A stretch of 64,000 nucleotides of DNA. It comes from Geobacter sp. Lineage in GTDB: Bacteria > Desulfobacterota > Desulfuromonadia > Geobacterales > DSM-12255. The stretch's first letter is position 1. Every line of letters begins with the position of its first letter. The notes beneath the pieces were generated by a model. It saw only the letters and a program-made list of their open reading frames with translations. It did not search any database and was not told the origin of the DNA. The position numbers were made by a program, and so were the translations under genes. The stretch lies in contig VFJK01000007.1 of NCBI GenBank assembly GCA_009886125.1, positions 1 to 64,000 on the forward strand, given 5' to 3'. Positions 41,563 to 53,129 of the stretch are shown here, one piece after another.

Positions 41563-44500
41563 ATGTTTCGCAAACACTCAAGGATCATCGCAGCGGTTGT
41601 ACTGTCATTTTTTACCTGGACCTCTGGCGGCCTTTTTTCTGTCGCCCATGCAGCACAGGATGCCGTCAAAAAGGCCAAGACTCAGGCTCCGGCAAAGAAG
41701 AGCGAGGGGGCAGAAGAACGCTTTGCCAAACTCACCGACGAACTGTCTGCCAACCTCTGCGACCAAAAAACAGATCATGCCGGCAAGAAGCAGAAGCTGA
41801 TCGCCCGCAAGGGTGAACTGGAGACCCTCGACACAGCCATCCGCACCGAATTCGCTGCTACCGAGCAACAGCTGAAGGCCGCCAAACTTCCAGCTGAAAT
41901 CCTGTCGCGGCATGCCAAGTTCGTCAAACACTACGACGACAACCTGAATGAATTGAAGAGGAACATCTCACTTGTTGAAAGCGCCAAGGGTGCTGAGGTA
42001 GAGACGGCGCTGGAGAAGAGCCGTCAGCACCTGGCAAAGGTAAAGGCCCCGTCGCGCCACCAGAAGCTCGATCCCAACAATCTTCCCCATCGGCAGCCAA
42101 AAGCCCTGAAGCGGGAGCCGCGGCTCAAGAAGGAGGAGTTTGACAAGGATCTCAAAAAAAACAAGCACGCCTGGAGAAGCACCAAGCGGATCATGGTTGC
42201 AGCCAACGGCTCGGTTGCCGGGCTATTGCCGTCGGATGGTCTTGCCGAAACAGTAGAAGTCCAGCTCACCCCGGAAATCAGGGCCAAGGCGCTGGAACTG
42301 GGGAACAGTCCGGTGAGGATCTACGAGTGGGTAAGGAACAATATTGATTACCAAGCATATTATGGCTCACTCAAAGGCTCTCAACAAACAATGCTGGAGT
42401 GTGCCGGAAACGATTTTGACCAGGCAAGTCTATTGATTGCACTACTGAGAGCTTCCAACATCGCCGCAAAATATGTCTACGGGACTGTTGAAATTCCGAT
42501 AGAAAGGGTCATGAGTTGGCTTGGTGTGACTGATCCGATGATGGCCATTTCAATGCTTGCGACCCAGGGTATTCCAATAAAAATTGCGACTACTGGAGGC
42601 ACAATTAAGGCCGTACAAATTGAGCATGTATGGGTTTCTGCATGGATTGATTATAATCCCTCGCGAGGTGCAGTTCATAAGCAGGGAGATACCTGGATTC
42701 CCCTTGATCCAAGCTTCAAGCAATATACCTCTCAAAAAGGGATGGACATGTATTCTCTCATGGGTTTCAGTGCCGCGCAGTTCTTGGAATCGTACATAAG
42801 AGACCCACGTGATGTTACTGCATACCAGGACTATGGCAAGCGCCTTGTCGATTTTGTTGATACAAATCTCCCCAATGCCACCATCGAGGACGTTTTCGGA
42901 ACTTCCGCTGTTAGTCATTCAAGGAGCATCGTCAAGAAAGAATATCCATTTCTCTTAGGCACCTTGCCCTATAAAGTCATTATAAAAGCTGGCCAGTTCA
43001 GTGAAATACCACTGCCTTACCGGTACTCAATCAGTATTCAGATTGGAGGAGACGCATTTGAGGGCACCTCCGGCATTAACTACACAGGCTGGCTTAGCAC
43101 TCTTGCAGATAAACGCGTCACGCTTTCCTATGAGCCCGCCACATCAACTGATGAATCCTTAGTTGCACAGTACGGCGGGAAGATGCTTGCCGTTCCTCCC
43201 TATTTGCTAAATGTAAAACCGGTTTTGAAGATAAACGGCGCTACTGTAGCTTCCGGAGCCGCCATTGGCCTTGGGAAAGACCAAAGTCTTGATATTAGCT
43301 TTTCAGGACCGGATGGTGATATGGATCGCGTTCAACATGTCATCACTGCTGGAGATTATTCAGCCATAGTTCTACCCTCGCAGAATACACCGAGCGCGGC
43401 GTCTTCTAAAAACATTGCGGCACTTTTCGAGAATGCAAAACGATACGATGCCGCTGATATCACCCTCGATGATCTTCTGGGTCAACTCCTCAATTCCATA
43501 GGCTATTCATATTTCTATCATATCGGTTTTGAAAATGATGTCTATGCAAAGACTATGCAACTCGAATACCGGCACCAGCCTTCAGAGGCTCTGGTCAAAC
43601 ACGGCATCTCAGTAAATTATTTATTCGGAATACCGCGAACGGTATCCGAAGGAAGCGTTAATATTGATGTGGCGAGAAATATCAAAAGTGTTTTTTCGCC
43701 TGCAAAGGACAAGACGCTGGAAAAGGACTTTATGATACTCTCCGGACTCTCGGCATCCAGTTGGGAGAGCCGAATACTGGAAGTTTTCTTTGATCTTCCT
43801 TCGGTTTCAGCTGTAAGGCTACTTAAGCTTGCATCAGAAAGAAATGTTCCTCTGCTTTCCATTGACAGCGCTAATCGAATAGATATGTTACCCCAACTTC
43901 AGGCAAGTGACGTAGTGAAAAATGATATTGAAAATGCCGTGAATGCTGGGAAGAAAGTAATAATTCCACAATCAGAAGTGACTTATAACCAATGGACTGG
44001 TACTGGATATATAGTCATGAATCCCGATACAGGTGCTGCGGGTTACATGATCAGTGGCGGGCTTGCAGGTGGAGGGACATCTGCCACGAGTGATTCCCTA
44101 AGAAATCCATCGCAAGAGCAATCAGTTTTTTCTATGCTCGCAAATCGCTCGTTTTGGGGGCAACGAATTGTTTTTATTGCTAAAGCATTTGTCGGGACGC
44201 CATATGTATGGGGCGGAAAAGAGATTGAAACCGGAGTAGATTGTTCTGGCTTTGTACATGAAGTTCATGAAACAGCAGGTATTTATATGCCAAAAGGAAA
44301 CGCAAGAAATCAATACAATTTGTGTTCTGCAATGGATTGGAGCCGTCCCTATGCTGATCGTACAGCTGGGGACATCATGTGGAATCAGGGGTTAACTCAT
44401 GTCGGTATAGAGGCTGGTATTAACACTATAATATGGCCACCGCATGCAGACCCCGGCACACCTGTTACCGGTGAAACAGTACTGCACGCATCAGGTCGTC

Positions 44501-44697
44501 CCTGCTATCAATCTAAAGACGACGCTCCAAAGGGAACTCCAAAGGAATGTATATTTATTGATTGTGAGCTAATTGATCCTACAAGACCTAAATTAGGTGG
44601 CAACGATTCTTGTGGTCAGTTTAATGAAGTAATTGAGTCTTCACCAAAATACTTTTCAAAAAATATCAATAATAATGTCTGTAGACCGAACAAGTAA
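41563..44697 (+). CDS. Large exported protein: transglutaminase-fold core with C-terminal NlpC/P60 domain
   Basis: Start at 41563 after GGAGGGAT. Signal peptide 1-31 (ends AHA); coiled-coil, Lys/Glu-rich region 35-210; transglutaminase-fold domain about 245-395. The His (EHVWVSAW, near 354) and Asp (PLDPSF, near 382) of the catalytic triad are present. The usual Cys position reads Asp (GNDFDQASLLIALLR, near 285), so this domain looks enzymatically dead, with a stray Cys three residues earlier. A long beta-rich region follows, then TGTGYIVMNPDTGAAGYMISGGLAGG (about 812-840), and a terminal NlpC/P60 domain (about 865-985: TPYVWGG, Cys894 in VDCSGF, His946 in THVGIEAG). NlpC/P60 enzymes cut peptidoglycan stem peptides. 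Composition turns AT-rich toward the 3' end. Thirteen bases separate it from the next gene. Confidence 0.88.
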   Translation: MFRKHSRIIAAVVLSFFTWTSGGLFSVAHAAQDAVKKAKTQAPAKKSEGAEERFAKLTDELSANLCDQKTDHAGKKQKLIARKGELETLDTAIRTEFAATEQQLKAAKLPAEILSRHAKFVKHYDDNLNELKRNISLVESAKGAEVETALEKSRQHLAKVKAPSRHQKLDPNNLPHRQPKALKREPRLKKEEFDKDLKKNKHAWRSTKRIMVAANGSVAGLLPSDGLAETVEVQLTPEIRAKALELGNSPVRIYEWVRNNIDYQAYYGSLKGSQQTMLECAGNDFDQASLLIALLRASNIAAKYVYGTVEIPIERVMSWLGVTDPMMAISMLATQGIPIKIATTGGTIKAVQIEHVWVSAWIDYNPSRGAVHKQGDTWIPLDPSFKQYTSQKGMDMYSLMGFSAAQFLESYIRDPRDVTAYQDYGKRLVDFVDTNLPNATIEDVFGTSAVSHSRSIVKKEYPFLLGTLPYKVIIKAGQFSEIPLPYRYSISIQIGGDAFEGTSGINYTGWLSTLADKRVTLSYEPATSTDESLVAQYGGKMLAVPPYLLNVKPVLKINGATVASGAAIGLGKDQSLDISFSGPDGDMDRVQHVITAGDYSAIVLPSQNTPSAASSKNIAALFENAKRYDAADITLDDLLGQLLNSIGYSYFYHIGFENDVYAKTMQLEYRHQPSEALVKHGISVNYLFGIPRTVSEGSVNIDVARNIKSVFSPAKDKTLEKDFMILSGLSASSWESRILEVFFDLPSVSAVRLLKLASERNVPLLSIDSANRIDMLPQLQASDVVKNDIENAVNAGKKVIIPQSEVTYNQWTGTGYIVMNPDTGAAGYMISGGLAGGGTSATSDSLRNPSQEQSVFSMLANRSFWGQRIVFIAKAFVGTPYVWGGKEIETGVDCSGFVHEVHETAGIYMPKGNARNQYNLCSAMDWSRPYADRTAGDIMWNQGLTHVGIEAGINTIIWPPHADPGTPVTGETVLHASGRPCYQSKDDAPKGTPKECIFIDCELIDPTRPKLGGNDSCGQFNEVIESSPKYFSKNINNNVCRPNK

Positions 44698-44710
44698 TAA
44701 AGGAGAGATA

Positions 44711-45682
44711 ATGAAAACAACTTGCATGATAGTTTTGAGTTACATTGTGTTTATGGTTCTAAGTTATGTGACTAATAGTTATGGAAAAGATATAGCTAAC
44801 TCACATAAGTTAAGTCATAATTATATATTGCGAAAAGTTAATGTATTTATTCCGTTTACTGTTAATAATATTAATGTAGCTGTTGATGATTTAGATAACG
44901 TTTATATAAATCATAATGCGTCAGTACTAGTCTACGGAAAAGGAGGAAATAGCATAAAAACTATAGAGCTGAACATTGATGATAAAAAATCACTTGGTAG
45001 ATTGCTAGAGGTATCTTCTACAGGTGACTTGCTTTTTATAGATAGTAAAATCAAGCCTTATAACAGAATATTCGTATTTAATAGTGATGGTAATCTTATA
45101 AATACTTTAAATTATGATGCTATTTTTAGATTAAATGATAAAAATATATTCAGAGCTGAAAATTATTCAAAAGGTAAAAAAATCAGGATGCATGCGCTCA
45201 ACAACAATCTAGAAAAAATTATTGATTACAGTAGTTACTATTTACCTAAAGATATTTTAAATCAAAAACCAGTCGGATTTATAGATAATGATATGAATTT
45301 ATATTACATGTGGTACTGGCCTGATTTTGTTAAAGTTGGACCATCCGGGGAAATTATATCGAAACAGAAAGTTACTTACAATGCTGAATTCTGGAGATTA
45401 ATTGGTATAGATTCTAAAAATATATTGTATGCGTTGGTTACAAGAAACAGTAAGAGTGAAATTGTCAAATTTGACGATAGAGCAGAAGTTATAACTTCAA
45501 TAGCGATTGAAGGCAAAACCAATATATCAAAGGTTATTGATAATGCCGAAGAAGGCGACGCTGAAACGTCTAACTATATTGTTATCGGCAATGGCAATAT
45601 TTATATAAAAAATGCTTACCCGGTGAACAAGAAAAAAGGTGAATACGCAATATACAGATTTGAACAGCAGTTGCAGAAATAG
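44711..45682 (+). CDS. AT-rich exported beta-propeller-like protein, candidate immunity
   Basis: Start at 44711 after AGGAGAGAT; signal peptide 1-25 (ends SYG). The remaining ~300 residues have repeated short beta motifs of propeller blades: DLDNVYINHNASVLVYG, GDLLFIDS...RIFVFNSDGNLI, DNDMNLYYMWYWPDFVKVGPSGEII, NILYALVT. I recognise no named family. Base composition is strikingly AT-rich next to the GC-balanced genes on either side, a sign of separate origin. Position directly after a peptidoglycan-hydrolase tip, plus export, fits a periplasmic immunity protein for the preceding product (inference). Confidence 0.75.
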   Translation: MKTTCMIVLSYIVFMVLSYVTNSYGKDIANSHKLSHNYILRKVNVFIPFTVNNINVAVDDLDNVYINHNASVLVYGKGGNSIKTIELNIDDKKSLGRLLEVSSTGDLLFIDSKIKPYNRIFVFNSDGNLINTLNYDAIFRLNDKNIFRAENYSKGKKIRMHALNNNLEKIIDYSSYYLPKDILNQKPVGFIDNDMNLYYMWYWPDFVKVGPSGEIISKQKVTYNAEFWRLIGIDSKNILYALVTRNSKSEIVKFDDRAEVITSIAIEGKTNISKVIDNAEEGDAETSNYIVIGNGNIYIKNAYPVNKKKGEYAIYRFEQQLQK

Positions 45683-45720: not shown

Positions 45721-48450
45721 ATGCATAAATGGCAGTTGTTCATTACAGTAACGGTGCTTTTCACGTTGGTATTCTCCACGACGGCACATGCCCAGTTACC
45801 CCAAATTTCAAGCGGCCTCAGCTATCTCTCATCATCCCAAAACCCCGACGGCACTTGGGGAGCTGGCACTTCACTAGTCGAGACGACAGCTACCACCATC
45901 TCCGCACTGGAAACCCTGAAACTCCTGAATCAGACCGGCGGAACAGCCTATAGCACCGGTGTTACATGGCTACAGGGACAAACGCTCCAGGGAGTCGATC
46001 CCATTGCCGGACGCATCCGCGTCCTTGCACTTGCCAACGGCAACGCTGACGCCCTAATGCCCTCATTAGATCAACTCAAAGGCGCCTGGGGTGGAGATGA
46101 GGATTATACAATAAACATCCTCGACACCAACCTTGCCCTCCAGGCACTCAAAGCCGCCAATTATGCTGACCAGACCACCATAACATCTGCTCTCAACTAC
46201 CTCACTTCAACCCAGAACCTTGACGGTGGCTGGGGATTTGTCGCAGGGGACGACAGCAGCATTCACGTCACAGCGCTGGTCTCAAGAACTATCCAGCAAT
46301 TTGCCCAGACCACCTTACTCGCTACATCTCTCAACAAGGCAACCAGCTATCTGCTTGTCCGGCAGAACAGCGATGGCGGCTTCGGGAGCCCTTCCTCGAC
46401 AATTCACGAAACCGCCCTGGCCTACACCGCTGTCGTTGCCGTGATAACTGACGCAACTGTCCTCGGCAAGGCGGTCGGCTTTCTGACCACAAACCAGTCT
46501 GCCGATGGTTCCTGGCTCCAGGACCCGTACAGCACTGCCCTGGCTTTGCGGGCACTCCACTATTCGGAAAACAAGCCGACACCGCCGCCGCTGCCACCCA
46601 CAACCGGAACCCTTAACGGCAAGGTCGTCAGTGCCGCCACCAGTGAGCCACTGGCCGGAGTTACCGTTTCCCTTGCCGGAAACCCGACCATTATAGCTTC
46701 AACGGATAGTGCCGGGGCGTTCAGGCTTGCCAATATCCCCCAAGGGAGCCAACAGATATTGTTTGCATTAAGCGGTTATGCCTCAGGGAATCTTACAACG
46801 ACTGTCTTGGCCGGAAGTATCGTCAACCTCGGCACACTCACCCTTGCCGTTGCGTCACCTACCGGGATTGTCCAAGGGGTCATCACCGATGCAGCAACCG
46901 GCTCTCCCATCGCCGGAGTCGTCATCACCGTAACCGGAACGGCTACTTGGACAGCTGTTACAACTGCAGACGGTGCATTCAAGATTGTCGATGTTATTCC
47001 AGGGATTATTACTCTATCCACCTCTAAGGCAGGTTATGCCGCTATCAACGGGACTGGAACGATTTCTGCCGGTGGAGTGATGATGTTCAGCCCCGCCCTC
47101 TCTATCACTCAATCGTCGGGGGCAACTGGTGAGCTTAAAGGAATGATGGTAGATAAAATCTCATCAGTTCCCATTGCCGGAGCAGTTGTTTCCATCACTG
47201 GAACAAAGAGCTATACAACATCGACAAATGCGACTGGGCAATACTCCCTGACGAACATAGATCCGGGCAGTTATTTCATTTCAATCACTGCTGCGGGTTA
47301 TTATGCCTGGGGTTCGAATTCCCTGATAACTATTGTCGCAGGCGGAGTCACTGACCTAGTCACGCAAATGCTGGAGTTGACACCGGCTTCCACCTCAATC
47401 AGCGGACAAGTGACCGACAGCCTGACAAACGTACCAATTGCTGATGCAGAGGTTTTCGTGACAGGGACTACCCTTAAGGCTAAAACCGACGCCACCGGCG
47501 CTTATACGATCCAAGGGATAAACCTGCTGGGATTCGAGCTGAAAGCTTCAGCCACCGGCTATGACAGCAAGAGCTACAATATATACAATCAGTACCATGG
47601 CATTTACATGGTCGATTTCAGTCTTGCTGCAAGTCCCGTTAAAGTGGGGATTGTTTCCGTTACGACAGGCAAGGAGATCTACCAAGCGTATGCCGATGTT
47701 ACCGTCACGGCGGAGATACTCAACTCTGACATCCTCCCTGTAACCGCTACGATCAACGCCTCAATACTGAATGCCCAAGGGGAGGTTGTCACTAATCTGC
47801 AAGCAACTGCGCCCAATGCCGATGGGGTTCTCCTGCCCAGCATTACGTTCCAGCCGGGCATTATCAGGACTGTCAGTATCCCCTGGAATACGGGTTATCT
47901 TCCGCCGGGAGCGTACAGTATCATCGTCAAAATAATGGAAGACGCAAGCGTAACAGGACTTGAATCCATGGTAATCGCTCAGCAATCCCATAAGATCACC
48001 ATAGAACCAACCCAGGCCATTGCTTCGCTTACCTTGACCCCTTTCCCGAGATATACCAACCTTGGAGCGACCGAACAAATCGGGCTGCAAGCTGCCTTTG
48101 TCAACCGCTCGAACATACCGACAGAAGTAGTCTTTAGTTACGACTGGAAGAGCCCTGACGGGGTTGTCCTCCATTCAGGAACAGGAACGATCACAGCTTT
48201 GCCAACAGAAACCTCCAAATCCATTCTGCTGGAGAGCTTTCCCTTCACATTTACCAAAAGCGGGGAGCATCCGTCACAGGTAAAGATAACCTCCGGACCG
48301 ATGCCGGCAAGCCTTGTCGGCGGAGTAGTTACCGTAGCTCCTGGTATCCGCATAGAACCAAGTCAAAGCCTCACCCCCACAACGCTTATCCCTGATGGGG
48401 ACAAGCGGATCCGGCTCAACATCAGATTGAAGGGGGTGGAGACGAAATGA
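45721..48450 (+). CDS. Exported alpha/alpha-toroid protein with carboxypeptidase-regulatory repeats
   Basis: A 909-residue protein preceded by GGAGG. Signal peptide 1-24 (ends AHA). Residues about 25-285 form a prenyltransferase/squalene-cyclase-like toroid: QNPDGTWGAG, QNLDGGWGF, QNSDGGFGS and QSADGSWLQ are the repeat turns. The fold is shared with the thioester domain of alpha-2-macroglobulins, but no CxEQ thioester motif is seen and no catalytic DxDD. After a Pro-rich hinge come four CarboxypepD_reg-like beta-sandwiches (about 297-375, 385-465, 475-560, 565-650; each begins GxVxDxxTxxPIAGVxVxVTGT). Two Ig-like C-terminal domains follow. It is a surface adhesion or scaffold protein by architecture. 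A four-base ATGA overlap joins it to the next gene. Confidence 0.87.
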   Translation: MHKWQLFITVTVLFTLVFSTTAHAQLPQISSGLSYLSSSQNPDGTWGAGTSLVETTATTISALETLKLLNQTGGTAYSTGVTWLQGQTLQGVDPIAGRIRVLALANGNADALMPSLDQLKGAWGGDEDYTINILDTNLALQALKAANYADQTTITSALNYLTSTQNLDGGWGFVAGDDSSIHVTALVSRTIQQFAQTTLLATSLNKATSYLLVRQNSDGGFGSPSSTIHETALAYTAVVAVITDATVLGKAVGFLTTNQSADGSWLQDPYSTALALRALHYSENKPTPPPLPPTTGTLNGKVVSAATSEPLAGVTVSLAGNPTIIASTDSAGAFRLANIPQGSQQILFALSGYASGNLTTTVLAGSIVNLGTLTLAVASPTGIVQGVITDAATGSPIAGVVITVTGTATWTAVTTADGAFKIVDVIPGIITLSTSKAGYAAINGTGTISAGGVMMFSPALSITQSSGATGELKGMMVDKISSVPIAGAVVSITGTKSYTTSTNATGQYSLTNIDPGSYFISITAAGYYAWGSNSLITIVAGGVTDLVTQMLELTPASTSISGQVTDSLTNVPIADAEVFVTGTTLKAKTDATGAYTIQGINLLGFELKASATGYDSKSYNIYNQYHGIYMVDFSLAASPVKVGIVSVTTGKEIYQAYADVTVTAEILNSDILPVTATINASILNAQGEVVTNLQATAPNADGVLLPSITFQPGIIRTVSIPWNTGYLPPGAYSIIVKIMEDASVTGLESMVIAQQSHKITIEPTQAIASLTLTPFPRYTNLGATEQIGLQAAFVNRSNIPTEVVFSYDWKSPDGVVLHSGTGTITALPTETSKSILLESFPFTFTKSGEHPSQVKITSGPMPASLVGGVVTVAPGIRIEPSQSLTPTTLIPDGDKRIRLNIRLKGVETK

Positions 48451-51400
48451 ACTCATTAATAAAGAAATCGGTTTTCCTTTCGATAATAATGCTTGCCCTG
48501 TGGATATTTGCTCCGCTAACGCTTCATGCTGCCCCTGACAGCGCCGGAACCGAGTTTTACTTTGCCTTTCAACCCAATTACGGAAATCTTGGTACAAACC
48601 GATCTTTGTTTCTGTCTATTTCCGGCAAACAGGATACTCAAGGCACAGTCACCATTCCAGGATTGAATTTCATTCAACCTTTTGTTGTTCAAGCAAATAA
48701 AGTAACAACGGTTGCCATTCCAGTTGCTGCTATGTCCCTCGGTGAAAAAACCATTGCAAAGCTCGGGGTACATGTAGTTGCGCAGAACGAAATCACAGTC
48801 TATGGAGCAAACCTGGCATATGCATCATCGGATGCATTTCTGGCGTTCCCAGTAGACGTGTTAGGACTTGAATATATTGCCATGAGCTATACAGGGTTAT
48901 GGTATTCGACTTCGCCAAAATACGACTTTCCTTCTCAAATAGCTGTTATCGGTGTATTTGACAATACGACTGTGACGATTACCCCTTCAGTGGAATCAAG
49001 AGGCCGCCCTGCCGGAATTCCGTTCACAGCTTCCCTTAATAGCGGCGACACTTATCAGATATCTGGCACGAAAGATGCCGATCTTACCGGGACCATAATA
49101 ACTTCCTCGGCGCCTGTCGCTGTGATGAGCGGAGCAAGTATGGCCAATGTCCCCATTGTAAAGGCAACGGCTGATCATCTTGTGGAAATGATGCCACCAG
49201 TTAGCACATGGGGGAAATCTTTTCTTAGCATACCGTTGGCAACTCGTATGAAAGGAGACAACTTCCGCATTCTTGCCTCGCAGGACAATACTGCTGTGAA
49301 AATCAATGGCGCAGTTGTAGCAACGTTGAATCGTGGGAAATTCTATGAAACAGTCCTGACTGATCGCTCACAGATAGAAACGAGCGCGCCGACTCTGGTG
49401 GCTCAATATTCTACTAGTTTTCAATTTGATGGTGTAATTGATGGAGCATATAATGTCAATGCTGACCCTTTCATGATACTAATTCCTCCCACAGAGCAGT
49501 TTTTACGCCAATATACTTTCAGTGCTATTTCTGGATTTTCCCCTAATTTCGTGAACATTGTAGCGCCAAGTTCATCTATAATATCTGTCACTTTGGATGG
49601 AACCCCTGTTAACTCAGCCCTCTTTACGACAATTGGCTCCAGTGGTTTCAGCGGAGCTCAAGTCCAAATTTCAACTGGTGCTCATGTAATCAGTTCGGAT
49701 GCGCCTCTCGGCATATATGTATATGGTTTTGGCTATGCTAATTCATACGGCTACCCAGGGGGAATGTCGTTCCAGCCGATCAATCAGGGAGGGGACAGCT
49801 TTGCGCCGAATGTAAAACTTAACCAGGTTGGTGACACCATCCAGGGGATCGCTACGGACAGCGAAGATATTAATGCCAATGGACTGCTGGATGCTGGTGA
49901 GGATCTGAATAACAACGGCATTATTGACCGCCGTGGCAACAATGTTCCGAATAGTAATGGAATTATAGATCAGGATACAGGGATATTTAAGGTGGAGCTG
50001 GAAGCAGGGGCAACAAATCTGAAGCTGGATCGTCTCCCGTTTGTTCCAGGTGCATTGACCGCCTATTTCTCGATCTCGCTGTTGGACCCAAAATTGCCGG
50101 GGAGTGGTGTCTTGCGGGTAGCTGATGGGGTTGGCAATCTGACCAAATCGCCGATATCTCTATTCGGCGTCCCTACCCTTAAAGATGTGCGCCTCATTGA
50201 TACTATCTCCACCAATACTATTGATATTGATAGCTCGTCATATTCCAAAACCCCCTACAGTATTAATGTAGTCGGAGATCGGACCGTTATCGAATGGCGG
50301 TTCGACAGCTTTCCGGCAGACTCTTTTCAGGATCTCGGTTTGGATCTGGTTATAAAGAATCCGGCGGCAGGGGAACAGCGACTGATTAGTCACAAGCTGG
50401 AACTGACTTATGTTGATCCGAACGGTAAGCAGGTGCGGACTGAGCTGGACCCCCAGTATGCAAGGGTTTTGAATTCTGCTTTTGACAGCACGATTACCTC
50501 GGATAAATCTGCCTATCCGGCAAATGAAAACGTCCTGCTCAATGTGAGGGTCAATAACCTCAGCGAGTATGCAAGAACCATCGATGCAAGAATAATAGTC
50601 GAAGACAGCCAGGGCATATTGGCCAAAGAAGTTGCACTCTTGCCGACGCAGAGTTTAACCTCCGGAACGATCAAAGAGTTTGCCAACCTTGCCTTCAATA
50701 CCGGTTCCATCCTTGCCGGAGATTATCGAGCCCATCTCTTCCTTTCCGAAAACAACAGGCAGGTGGGGGAGTCTATTGCCACTTTCAAAATCCAGCCGAC
50801 TATGACCCTGAATTCAAAAGTGACAACGGATAAGGCTTCCTATTCCGCCAATGAACGTGTTGCAATTAAAGCGAATATTCAAAGTTTGAGCCCCAATTAC
50901 ATCTTCTCGGCACTGACCGCAAAAACAAGCATAGTCAATGACCAGGGGCTGATTCTGTTCACTGATGCGAAGACCATACCTCAACTTGCAACCAACCAGA
51001 CAGTTGAGTTGGCTACCAACTGGAACAGCGCCGTATTCCCGAAGGGCGCGTACACAGTAAAATCTGATGTTTTCGACGGAGCAACGCTTTTAAGCACGAC
51101 TCAATCAACGTTTGCAATAGTTGGCTCCACGGTTAAGGCTACCGGAGTTACTGGGACAGTTTCGATGCTGCCCAGTTCCATCGAATTTGGATCAGATGGG
51201 ACTATTACCTTTTCGCTTGCGAATAAAGGAAATGAAGAGATCCCCAATGCAACGGTGAAACTCCTCATTGTCGATCCTGATTCAACCCAGGTGATAAAAC
51301 TGTTGGAACCAATGAAGAGCATCGTTGTCCCTGCGATTGGATCTTTAACCGGCCAAGTGGTTTTACCGACAGCCGGGCTGACCCTGAAAAGCTATCTGGT

Positions 51401-53129
51401 GGTCATGCAGCTTGAGCAGCCGGGGAGCGTGAATTCCCTTGCCAGCAGTTCATTTGCAGTCAAGGACACAACGCCACCGATTGTAATCATTGTCATTCCT
51501 GTAAAAGATACTCTGTATAGTTCACCTGTAAACCTGTCCATCATTGCAGCTGATAATGCTTCCGGTATGGAGAGGGTCGAATATCAGATATACGATGGAA
51601 TCTGGAATAGCCTTCCGGTTGCAGACCCCGCCATTGGCAAATATGCACTGTCATGGCAGCCAGCGGTTGCCGACAACGGTGTGCGAACCGTCAAGTTCAG
51701 AGGCTTTGATTTGGCGGGTAACCAAAGTAATCCCATTTCAGTAACGTTTACGGTTGACACCATCCCGCCGGTCCTGACGGTCTCTACTCTGAGCGACGGC
51801 AGCTATACAAACAAGGAAGTGCTCAATATCTCCGGAACGGTGCGGGATAATTCCGGAGTCGCCAGTCTTGATGTTAATTGTGCCGTCGTATCGGTTGCCG
51901 GTGACGGTTCCTTCAGTCAGGCCCTGTTGCTCAAAAATCCTGACAATACTGTAGAGGTCAAAGCCATCGACATGGCAGGAAACAAGGCAGTTGACAGCCG
52001 CACCATCCACTTCGACCAGAAAGCACCAAACCTGACCATAGACGCTCCAGCAGATAACAGCAAAACAGCCATCTCCCCAATAGAAGTTAAAGGGAGCGTA
52101 GATGAAACCTCAACCGTCACCTCCAAGCTTAATGGCATCATCCAGCCGGTAATCATGGACGGCAACCGCTTCTCGGCCACAGTGCTTCCCGAACCACGCT
52201 GGAACACCATCGAAATAACCGCCACAGATTTGGCTGGAAACACGAGCAGCCAGAAGCGGAGCGTGCTGTTCGACGACCAGAGGCCGTCACTGGCAATCAC
52301 CGAGCCATCCCAGGATATCCGTACCAACAAAAGCAGCATGACCATCAGCGGCAAGGTTTCTGACCCTTACTCCGCTGTAGGCTTAACCGTAGCAATGGAC
52401 GGAGTCATCCTCACACCGCCGGTGGTTAATGACATCTTCTCCCAGATCGTCATCTTCACAGACGAAAAGCTCTACCCGATCACTATAACCGCCAGTAACG
52501 AAATAGGTACGCAGACTATCGCCCAGCGCAACATCATCTTTGATAAAACCCCGCCGAACATGACCATCGATCCGGTCTGCAGCCCGACCAATGCATCGAG
52601 TCAGATCGTAAAAGGCACCAGAGAGGATGGGGCAATTGTGGTTGTCAGCTGTGCTACCGCCACAGTCGGCGCTGTGGAGTATCCGACAACCACCAGTTGG
52701 CGGATGTCGCTCGCCGGGATGCAGGAGGGAGAGAACCGGCTACAGGCGACAGCCACAGATCTGGCTGACAACCGGACAACAGCCAATGCTACAATCCTTT
52801 ACGTGCCCAAGGCTCCTGAAGTGACCATCAGCGCCAGCCCTAACCAGATCTGGCCGCCGAATAAGAAGCTTGTCCCTGTAGTCATTGCCGGAAACGTGGC
52901 TACCTTTGGTGTGGACGTTAGGGACGTGACTGTCTCTGTTGCCGACGAATACGGCAAGTACAATCTTCAGGGGCTTAAACTTGGAGATACGGTGCTGCTG
53001 GAGGCATGGCGCGACGGGAACGACATGGACGGCAGGGTCTACACCATAACTGCTGTCGTCACGGATCAGGCGGGAAACAGGACAACGAAGTCAACAGCGG
53101 TCATTGTTCCCCACGATATGGGGAAATAG
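48447..53129 (+). CDS. Giant exported protein: IgGFc-binding domain plus Ig-like repeats
   Basis: A 1560-residue protein. Signal peptide 1-28 (ends LHA); N-terminal IgGFc-binding-type domain (about 30-440: GTEFYFAFQPNYG, NRSLFLSISG, then repeated VTIP and VYGANL blades). A calcium-binding-like segment follows near 470-510 (DINANGLLDAGEDLNNNGIIDRRGN, Asp/Asn-rich as in thrombospondin type 3 repeats). Two CARDB/Ig-like domains beginning SDKSAYPANENV and TDKASYSANERV, and then several bacterial Ig-like domains with the DTTPP/DTIPP/DKTPP-type linkers, complete it. There is no sortase or C-terminal barrel motif, so anchoring is unclear. It ends the cassette; a strong terminator follows at 53164. 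Confidence 0.88.
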   Translation: MNSLIKKSVFLSIIMLALWIFAPLTLHAAPDSAGTEFYFAFQPNYGNLGTNRSLFLSISGKQDTQGTVTIPGLNFIQPFVVQANKVTTVAIPVAAMSLGEKTIAKLGVHVVAQNEITVYGANLAYASSDAFLAFPVDVLGLEYIAMSYTGLWYSTSPKYDFPSQIAVIGVFDNTTVTITPSVESRGRPAGIPFTASLNSGDTYQISGTKDADLTGTIITSSAPVAVMSGASMANVPIVKATADHLVEMMPPVSTWGKSFLSIPLATRMKGDNFRILASQDNTAVKINGAVVATLNRGKFYETVLTDRSQIETSAPTLVAQYSTSFQFDGVIDGAYNVNADPFMILIPPTEQFLRQYTFSAISGFSPNFVNIVAPSSSIISVTLDGTPVNSALFTTIGSSGFSGAQVQISTGAHVISSDAPLGIYVYGFGYANSYGYPGGMSFQPINQGGDSFAPNVKLNQVGDTIQGIATDSEDINANGLLDAGEDLNNNGIIDRRGNNVPNSNGIIDQDTGIFKVELEAGATNLKLDRLPFVPGALTAYFSISLLDPKLPGSGVLRVADGVGNLTKSPISLFGVPTLKDVRLIDTISTNTIDIDSSSYSKTPYSINVVGDRTVIEWRFDSFPADSFQDLGLDLVIKNPAAGEQRLISHKLELTYVDPNGKQVRTELDPQYARVLNSAFDSTITSDKSAYPANENVLLNVRVNNLSEYARTIDARIIVEDSQGILAKEVALLPTQSLTSGTIKEFANLAFNTGSILAGDYRAHLFLSENNRQVGESIATFKIQPTMTLNSKVTTDKASYSANERVAIKANIQSLSPNYIFSALTAKTSIVNDQGLILFTDAKTIPQLATNQTVELATNWNSAVFPKGAYTVKSDVFDGATLLSTTQSTFAIVGSTVKATGVTGTVSMLPSSIEFGSDGTITFSLANKGNEEIPNATVKLLIVDPDSTQVIKLLEPMKSIVVPAIGSLTGQVVLPTAGLTLKSYLVVMQLEQPGSVNSLASSSFAVKDTTPPIVIIVIPVKDTLYSSPVNLSIIAADNASGMERVEYQIYDGIWNSLPVADPAIGKYALSWQPAVADNGVRTVKFRGFDLAGNQSNPISVTFTVDTIPPVLTVSTLSDGSYTNKEVLNISGTVRDNSGVASLDVNCAVVSVAGDGSFSQALLLKNPDNTVEVKAIDMAGNKAVDSRTIHFDQKAPNLTIDAPADNSKTAISPIEVKGSVDETSTVTSKLNGIIQPVIMDGNRFSATVLPEPRWNTIEITATDLAGNTSSQKRSVLFDDQRPSLAITEPSQDIRTNKSSMTISGKVSDPYSAVGLTVAMDGVILTPPVVNDIFSQIVIFTDEKLYPITITASNEIGTQTIAQRNIIFDKTPPNMTIDPVCSPTNASSQIVKGTREDGAIVVVSCATATVGAVEYPTTTSWRMSLAGMQEGENRLQATATDLADNRTTANATILYVPKAPEVTISASPNQIWPPNKKLVPVVIAGNVATFGVDVRDVTVSVADEYGKYNLQGLKLGDTVLLEAWRDGNDMDGRVYTITAVVTDQAGNRTTKSTAVIVPHDMGK

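Follow-up and report, generated by a model that had tools for sequence, protein, structure and literature searches.

The window analysed here is a stretch of 64,000 nucleotides from Geobacter sp. (positions 1 to 64,000 of the forward strand of contig VFJK01000007.1, assembly GCA_009886125.1). At positions 41,563 to 45,682 it carries two adjacent genes, A and B, which are treated below as a probable polymorphic toxin and its predicted immunity protein. Features of the pair, in window positions, were assigned as follows.

41563..44697, + strand: gene A, 1044 amino acids, exported carrier with an exchangeable C-terminal tip, probable polymorphic toxin (from the list of open reading frames, Pfam and homologues with other tips)
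41563..41655, + strand: signal peptide, residues 1–31, with the conserved motif FFTWTSGGLFSVAHA
42265..42711, + strand: transglutaminase-like domain, residues 235–383, Cys replaced (GNDFD), His355 and Asp382 kept (Pfam, 3e-14; alignment to 3isr)
44005..44061, + strand: junction motif GYIVMNPDTGAAGYMISGG, residues 815–833, exchange boundary
44062..44694, + strand: variable tip, residues 834–1044, predicted toxin domain (from tip comparison)
44194..44433, + strand: NlpC/P60 domain in the tip, residues 878–957, with Cys894 at 44242–44244 and His946 at 44398–44400
44701..44707, + strand: Shine–Dalgarno sequence of gene B, AGGAGAG, within the 13-bp gap
44711..45682, + strand: gene B, 323 amino acids, exported, probable six-bladed beta-propeller, predicted immunity protein

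Gene A, which is preceded by a good Shine–Dalgarno sequence at its start (41563), consists of a long body (residues 1–830 in the comparisons below) and a tip that makes up the last fifth of the protein. Within the body, residues 235–383 matched Pfam Transglut_core. Alignment to 3isr showed the Cys position of this domain to be replaced, most often by Ala or Asp, in every one of the 30 homologues in which the site could be located, and the domain is predicted to be catalytically inactive. A Pfam scan of gene A detected neither RHS repeats nor a two-partner secretion domain. The signal-peptide motif, FFTWTSGG[VL]FS[IV]AHA across the family, was strongly conserved, with small changes only from Geobacterales to Nitrospirota; this is unusual in a cleaved signal peptide, and the motif is perhaps a sorting signal.

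A preliminary description of the locus, made from the sequence without database searches, had ended gene A in an NlpC/P60 domain with Cys894 and His946. This was borne out by a Pfam NLPC_P60 match to residues 878–957 (1e-8), which exceeded the curated cut-off, and by the alignment of Cys894 (VDCSG) and His946 (THVGI) with conserved positions of the family; solved NlpC/P60 structures independently backed the assignment (3e-8). The same description had placed gene B 13 bp further on, and the spacing is exactly that, with the Shine–Dalgarno sequence inside the gap. The product of gene B begins with a hydrophobic signal sequence, as had been proposed, although the epithet "small" does not suit a protein of 323 residues. 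With the gene B sequence alone, Pfam and NCBIfam returned no match, nor did a plasmid search. The structure model was all-beta and resembled six-bladed propellers of the NHL type (E about 1e-8), so that a six-bladed propeller is the probable fold, on a model of moderate confidence (pLDDT 58, pTM 0.58). A promoter and terminator scan gave sites no more numerous than by chance and was not used.

For family-wide comparison, GTDB contigs and genomes at the levels of order, class and phylum were searched with a profile of the body. Two architectures were found: a body followed by a short tip, in frames of ~1000–1100 amino acids, and distant bodies in long frames of up to ~3500 amino acids, which were of RHS type where inspected. 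From Desulfobacterota and Nitrospirota, 30 short-tip pairs were taken, and the tip and next gene of each were extracted. Body homologues over residues 1–830 were conserved (median identity 44%), whereas similarity between tips was detectable in 24/325 pairs. NlpC/P60 tips were seen in the window, L005, L044, L106 and L111; caspase-like tips, recognized mostly by motif with a weak Pfam match, occurred twice in L027 and in L094, L099, L102 and L105; and L112 had an SLT-like tip with a weak Pfam match. An M15-like tip (L040) and an ADP-ribosyltransferase-like tip (L095) were assigned by eye only, and the remaining tips were short hydrophobic domains with membrane segments. The junction preceding the tips had the consensus GYIVxxPxTGxxxYMISGG.

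NlpC/P60 domains are mostly housekeeping wall endopeptidases, the source genome has another, and genes A and B are closely spaced and co-directional with the two genes that follow, C and D. Gene A could on these grounds be an autolysin or wall-remodelling enzyme that serves the producer, with the body carrying it to the surface and gene B acting as regulator or cofactor. Against this, the same body bears unrelated peptidase-like, lysozyme-like, presumed cytosolic and membrane-spanning tips in relatives, and the gene is patchy, the body being present in 23/141 genomes of the order and the window tip in 1/274 genomes of the class. We consider an autolysin very unlikely.

The GC content of the gene A body was 48.5%, that of the tip 41.7% and that of gene B 29.4%, compared with 53% and 49% in the next genes. 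The AT-richness reported earlier for the 3' part of gene A and for gene B relative to their neighbours was thus confirmed, but the C-terminal quarter of the body is also somewhat AT-rich and the pattern is not peculiar to this locus: GC was lower in the tip than in the body in 29 of the 30 pairs and lower in the partner than in the body in all 30 (medians of 51.6, 40.7 and 33.6% for body, tip and partner, respectively). The sharp fall to 29% might also point to a mobile-element insertion or to decayed, functionless sequence. However, the frames are open, the catalytic residues are kept, a good Shine–Dalgarno sequence is present and the same GC pattern is found in nearly all intact relatives, which makes insertion or decay extremely improbable here. 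Elsewhere in the family, body genes broken by frameshifts or stop codons were seen in L105, L074 and G006:C54, and decay of body-family loci is common.

Additional copies of the system were found in the same genome and genus. A second body in the source genome was 52% identical to that of gene A over residues 1–846. Its tip (L005) differed from that of gene A: it was an NlpC/P60/CHAP-like domain (Pfam, 4e-5 and 2e-5) with 28% identity to the window tip over 125 residues (E 0.001). The next gene, which overlaps it or lies 10 bp downstream depending on the start chosen, encodes an exported protein that matched a beta-propeller repeat. In locus L027, from the same genus, two tandem body copies carried caspase-like tips and exported YcdB/PepSY-like partners; the bodies were 93% identical, the tips 38% and the partners 49%. 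At the DNA level the two copies were about 100% identical from ~codon 255 to codon 825 (1.7 kb) and dropped abruptly to ~50% exactly at the GYMVRNPETGEGAYMLSSG junction. This drop agrees with the earlier suggestion that the beta segment before the tip, here residues 815–833, marks an exchange boundary. A third partner homologue (L027:18298-19179), 31–34% identical, lay downstream with no tip of its own. An M23-like (LytM) peptidase gene (L027:19190-19759) was also present; such a gene recurred downstream of the partner behind caspase-like tips in L027, L094, L099, L102 and L105, was 70–82% identical between the loci compared, and was not seen behind other tip types in the stretches examined.

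To follow tip and partner through the family, as the preliminary description had proposed with an alignment of residues 1–830, the location of the two products was compared. With membrane segments called by a simple hydropathy window, the L096 tip (one predicted segment only) put by hand into the membrane class and L097 (soluble tip, no partner) excluded, a membrane partner followed 16/16 membrane tips versus 0/14 soluble tips (Fisher 6.9e-9). When tips were grouped by BLAST links into 11 membrane and 5 soluble families to allow for kinship, the split was still perfect (11/0 versus 0/5; 1 in 4368 by chance). Discordance with the body was observed in L094, L099 and L102: the L094 body is nearer to L099 (79%) than to L102 (68%), whereas its tip is nearer to that of L102 (61%, against 50% for L099); the L094 partner shares 75% identity with the first partner of L102 and is unrelated to the first partner of L099. 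Tip and partner have moved together in these three loci. The window tip and partner likewise both matched a Nitrospirota locus, L044 (29%, 4e-17, and 24%, 1e-13, respectively). With the thresholds applied, neither was found in 273 further genomes of the class, except for one weak partner match. The opposite pattern, in which tip and next gene are conserved in step with the body in all relatives, was not seen.

Partner types also differed with the tip. Propellers accompanied wall-hydrolase tips, serpin-like or YcdB-like proteins accompanied caspase-like peptidase tips, and non-exported partners accompanied presumed cytosolic tips (L095 and a Paraglaciecola relative). In L095 the soluble, ADP-ribosyltransferase-like tip is followed by a partner with no export signal of any kind. 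Further loci, L110 and L114, contained orphan modules in which C-terminal fragments of the body carry further tips with their own partners, and partner-type genes with no tip of their own were found at L027:18298-19179 and L099:9984-11072; tip-less partner genes and orphan modules are as expected of polymorphic toxin systems and immunity arrays.

Tip-specific chaperones exist in some secretion systems, and gene B might instead serve the tip as a dedicated chaperone for export, as an adaptor or as a co-effector. On such a reading, too, the two genes would be tightly linked and exchanged together. It is the location of the partner that argues otherwise, following the site of action of the tip (integral membrane proteins with membrane tips, exported ones with wall and peptidase tips, non-exported ones with presumed cytosolic tips) in a way not expected of a chaperone for a Sec substrate. 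Orphan partner genes with no tip (L027, L099) and the protease-inhibitor-like partners of peptidase tips also speak against a chaperone, and we regard this role as very improbable.

Several other features of these loci were recorded. The lipoprotein-like partners of caspase-like tips at L094:4192-5298, L102:6311-7414 and L099:9984-11072 gave Pfam Serpin matches in the C-terminal region. One member scored 27.8 bits against a cut-off of 27, PDB-profile support was weak, and the AlphaFold model of the serpin-like partner had a pLDDT of 32, leaving Pfam as the sole source of the serpin link; these partners are possibly protease-inhibitor immunity proteins. L040 has a large tip in which M15-peptidase-like motifs were recognized by eye; behind it lie two FG-GAP-like partners in tandem, with 45% mutual identity. 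L118, on a Paraglaciecola mesophila plasmid (NZ_CP047657.1), has an RHS-free body homologue near an integrase; its tip is presumed cytosolic and nuclease-like by eye, and its partner has no export signal.

Co-exchange of tip and partner, the second copies, the orphan modules and the match in location together lead us to read genes A and B, from comparative sequence evidence, as very probably a polymorphic toxin and its immunity protein. Joint exchange of tip and partner on a retained body is a hallmark of toxins deployed between bacteria. Several points weigh on the other side. At L111, an NlpC/P60 locus, the first partner differs; with the start chosen it scored as neither a membrane protein nor an exported one, and a start further upstream provides a hydrophobic N-terminus. 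At L097 no partner is evident. The propeller model of gene B is of only moderate confidence. Many loci come from metagenome assemblies, which may account for part of the identical tandem repeat in L027. Finally, as regards transfer from the surface into a target, the source genome encodes a type II secretin, but a gene for the type VI secretion system (T6SS) sheath (VipB) gave no match in this genome at 99.7% completeness.

On the toxin and immunity reading, gene A would leave the cell via Sec by its signal peptide, and its N-terminal helical region and dead transglutaminase-like domain would form a constant carrier positioned beyond the inner membrane, probably on the cell surface. As an NlpC/P60 cysteine amidase, the tip would cleave the stem peptides of peptidoglycan in a neighbour's periplasm. 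Gene B, translated just behind gene A, would be exported to the periplasm of the producer, where its propeller would bind and block the tip in the way that Tsi1 blocks Tse1. Joint exchange of tip and partner at the junction would give rise to new specificities. We infer in this way the toxicity and enzymatic activity of the tip, its neutralization by gene B, surface display and transfer into the target. The role of periplasmic protector proposed earlier for the exported partner fits the co-exchange, the location match and the Tse1/Tsi1 precedent.

RHS and contact-dependent inhibition (CDI) polymorphic toxins have a constant carrier, a conserved junction, a swapped tip with a downstream immunity gene, and orphan modules. 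Gene A differs from both in having no RHS repeats or two-partner secretion domain. A survey of polymorphic toxins (Zhang et al. 2012, PMC3482391) proposed that inactive transglutaminase domains anchor Sec-exported members and stated that RHS repeats invariably come next. Gene A shares with those toxins a signal peptide followed by a transglutaminase-like domain minus its catalytic residue, variable C-terminal toxin domains and Sec-type export, and distant relatives of its body run into long RHS-type proteins; however, ~30 proteins here pass straight from body to tip. For the tip and its partner, the closest parallel is Tse1/Tsi1 (Tae1/Tai1) of Pseudomonas aeruginosa, in which an NlpC/P60-type amidase is inhibited by the periplasmic, propeller-like Tsi1 (PMC3391265). 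The gene A tip shares with Tse1 the NlpC/P60 fold and the catalytic Cys-His pair; gene B has a signal sequence and, on a model of moderate confidence, would be a propeller-like partner. Tse1, however, is a single-domain T6SS effector, whereas the predicted amidase here is the tip of a 1044-residue Sec-exported protein in a genome with no detectable T6SS sheath gene. In Tsi1 the propeller is fragmented into three sheets, whereas the gene B model resembles a complete propeller with six blades. No published work describing the gene A–B system was found in a search that covered literature other than subscription papers and dealt with propeller and serpin immunity proteins, inactive transglutaminases and companions of squalene-cyclase type. 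The system is, by sequence, an RHS-free carrier with a predicted inactive transglutaminase, an NlpC/P60 tip and a propeller as predicted immunity protein.

Two further genes lie directly downstream.

45721..48450, + strand: gene C, secreted, squalene-cyclase/prenyltransferase-like toroid repeats with carboxypeptidase-regulatory domains, conserved companion
48447..53129, + strand: gene D, secreted IgGFc-binding and Ig-like repeat protein, 4-bp overlap with gene C, occasional companion

In most extended loci a relative of gene C lay close to the body gene. Of the 58 relatives compared, 7 had a strong homologue of gene C, and each of these 7 genomes carried the body as well. Both observations suggest a part for gene C in display or delivery. 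In a distant lineage, a gene D homologue of the IgGFc-binding type (L114:789-5147) lies directly upstream of a body gene, and gene D may belong to the toxin system too. A broader proposal, to which we give not quite an even chance, is that these loci form a separate Sec-dependent, RHS-free delivery platform. It would pair a carrier bearing the FFTWTSGG[VL]FS[IV]AHA motif and a dead transglutaminase with a surface protein of squalene-cyclase type dedicated to it. The interchangeable tips on display would cut the wall, act as proteases, insert into membranes or act in the cytosol, and serpin-like proteins would give immunity against the protease tips.

With this pair, polymorphic toxins would come to include a Sec-exported carrier that lacks RHS repeats, in metal-reducing bacteria of sediments and aquifers, for which no described toxin of that kind was found. 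The pair also supplies a predicted immunity family for NlpC/P60 tips, for which the 2012 survey (PMC3482391) tabulated no immunity protein (Tox-NLPC/P60), and suggests that propellers have been adopted more than once against wall-cutting enzymes. The conserved signal-peptide motif and the companion genes make display and delivery of Sec-exported toxins testable in genetically tractable Geobacterales.

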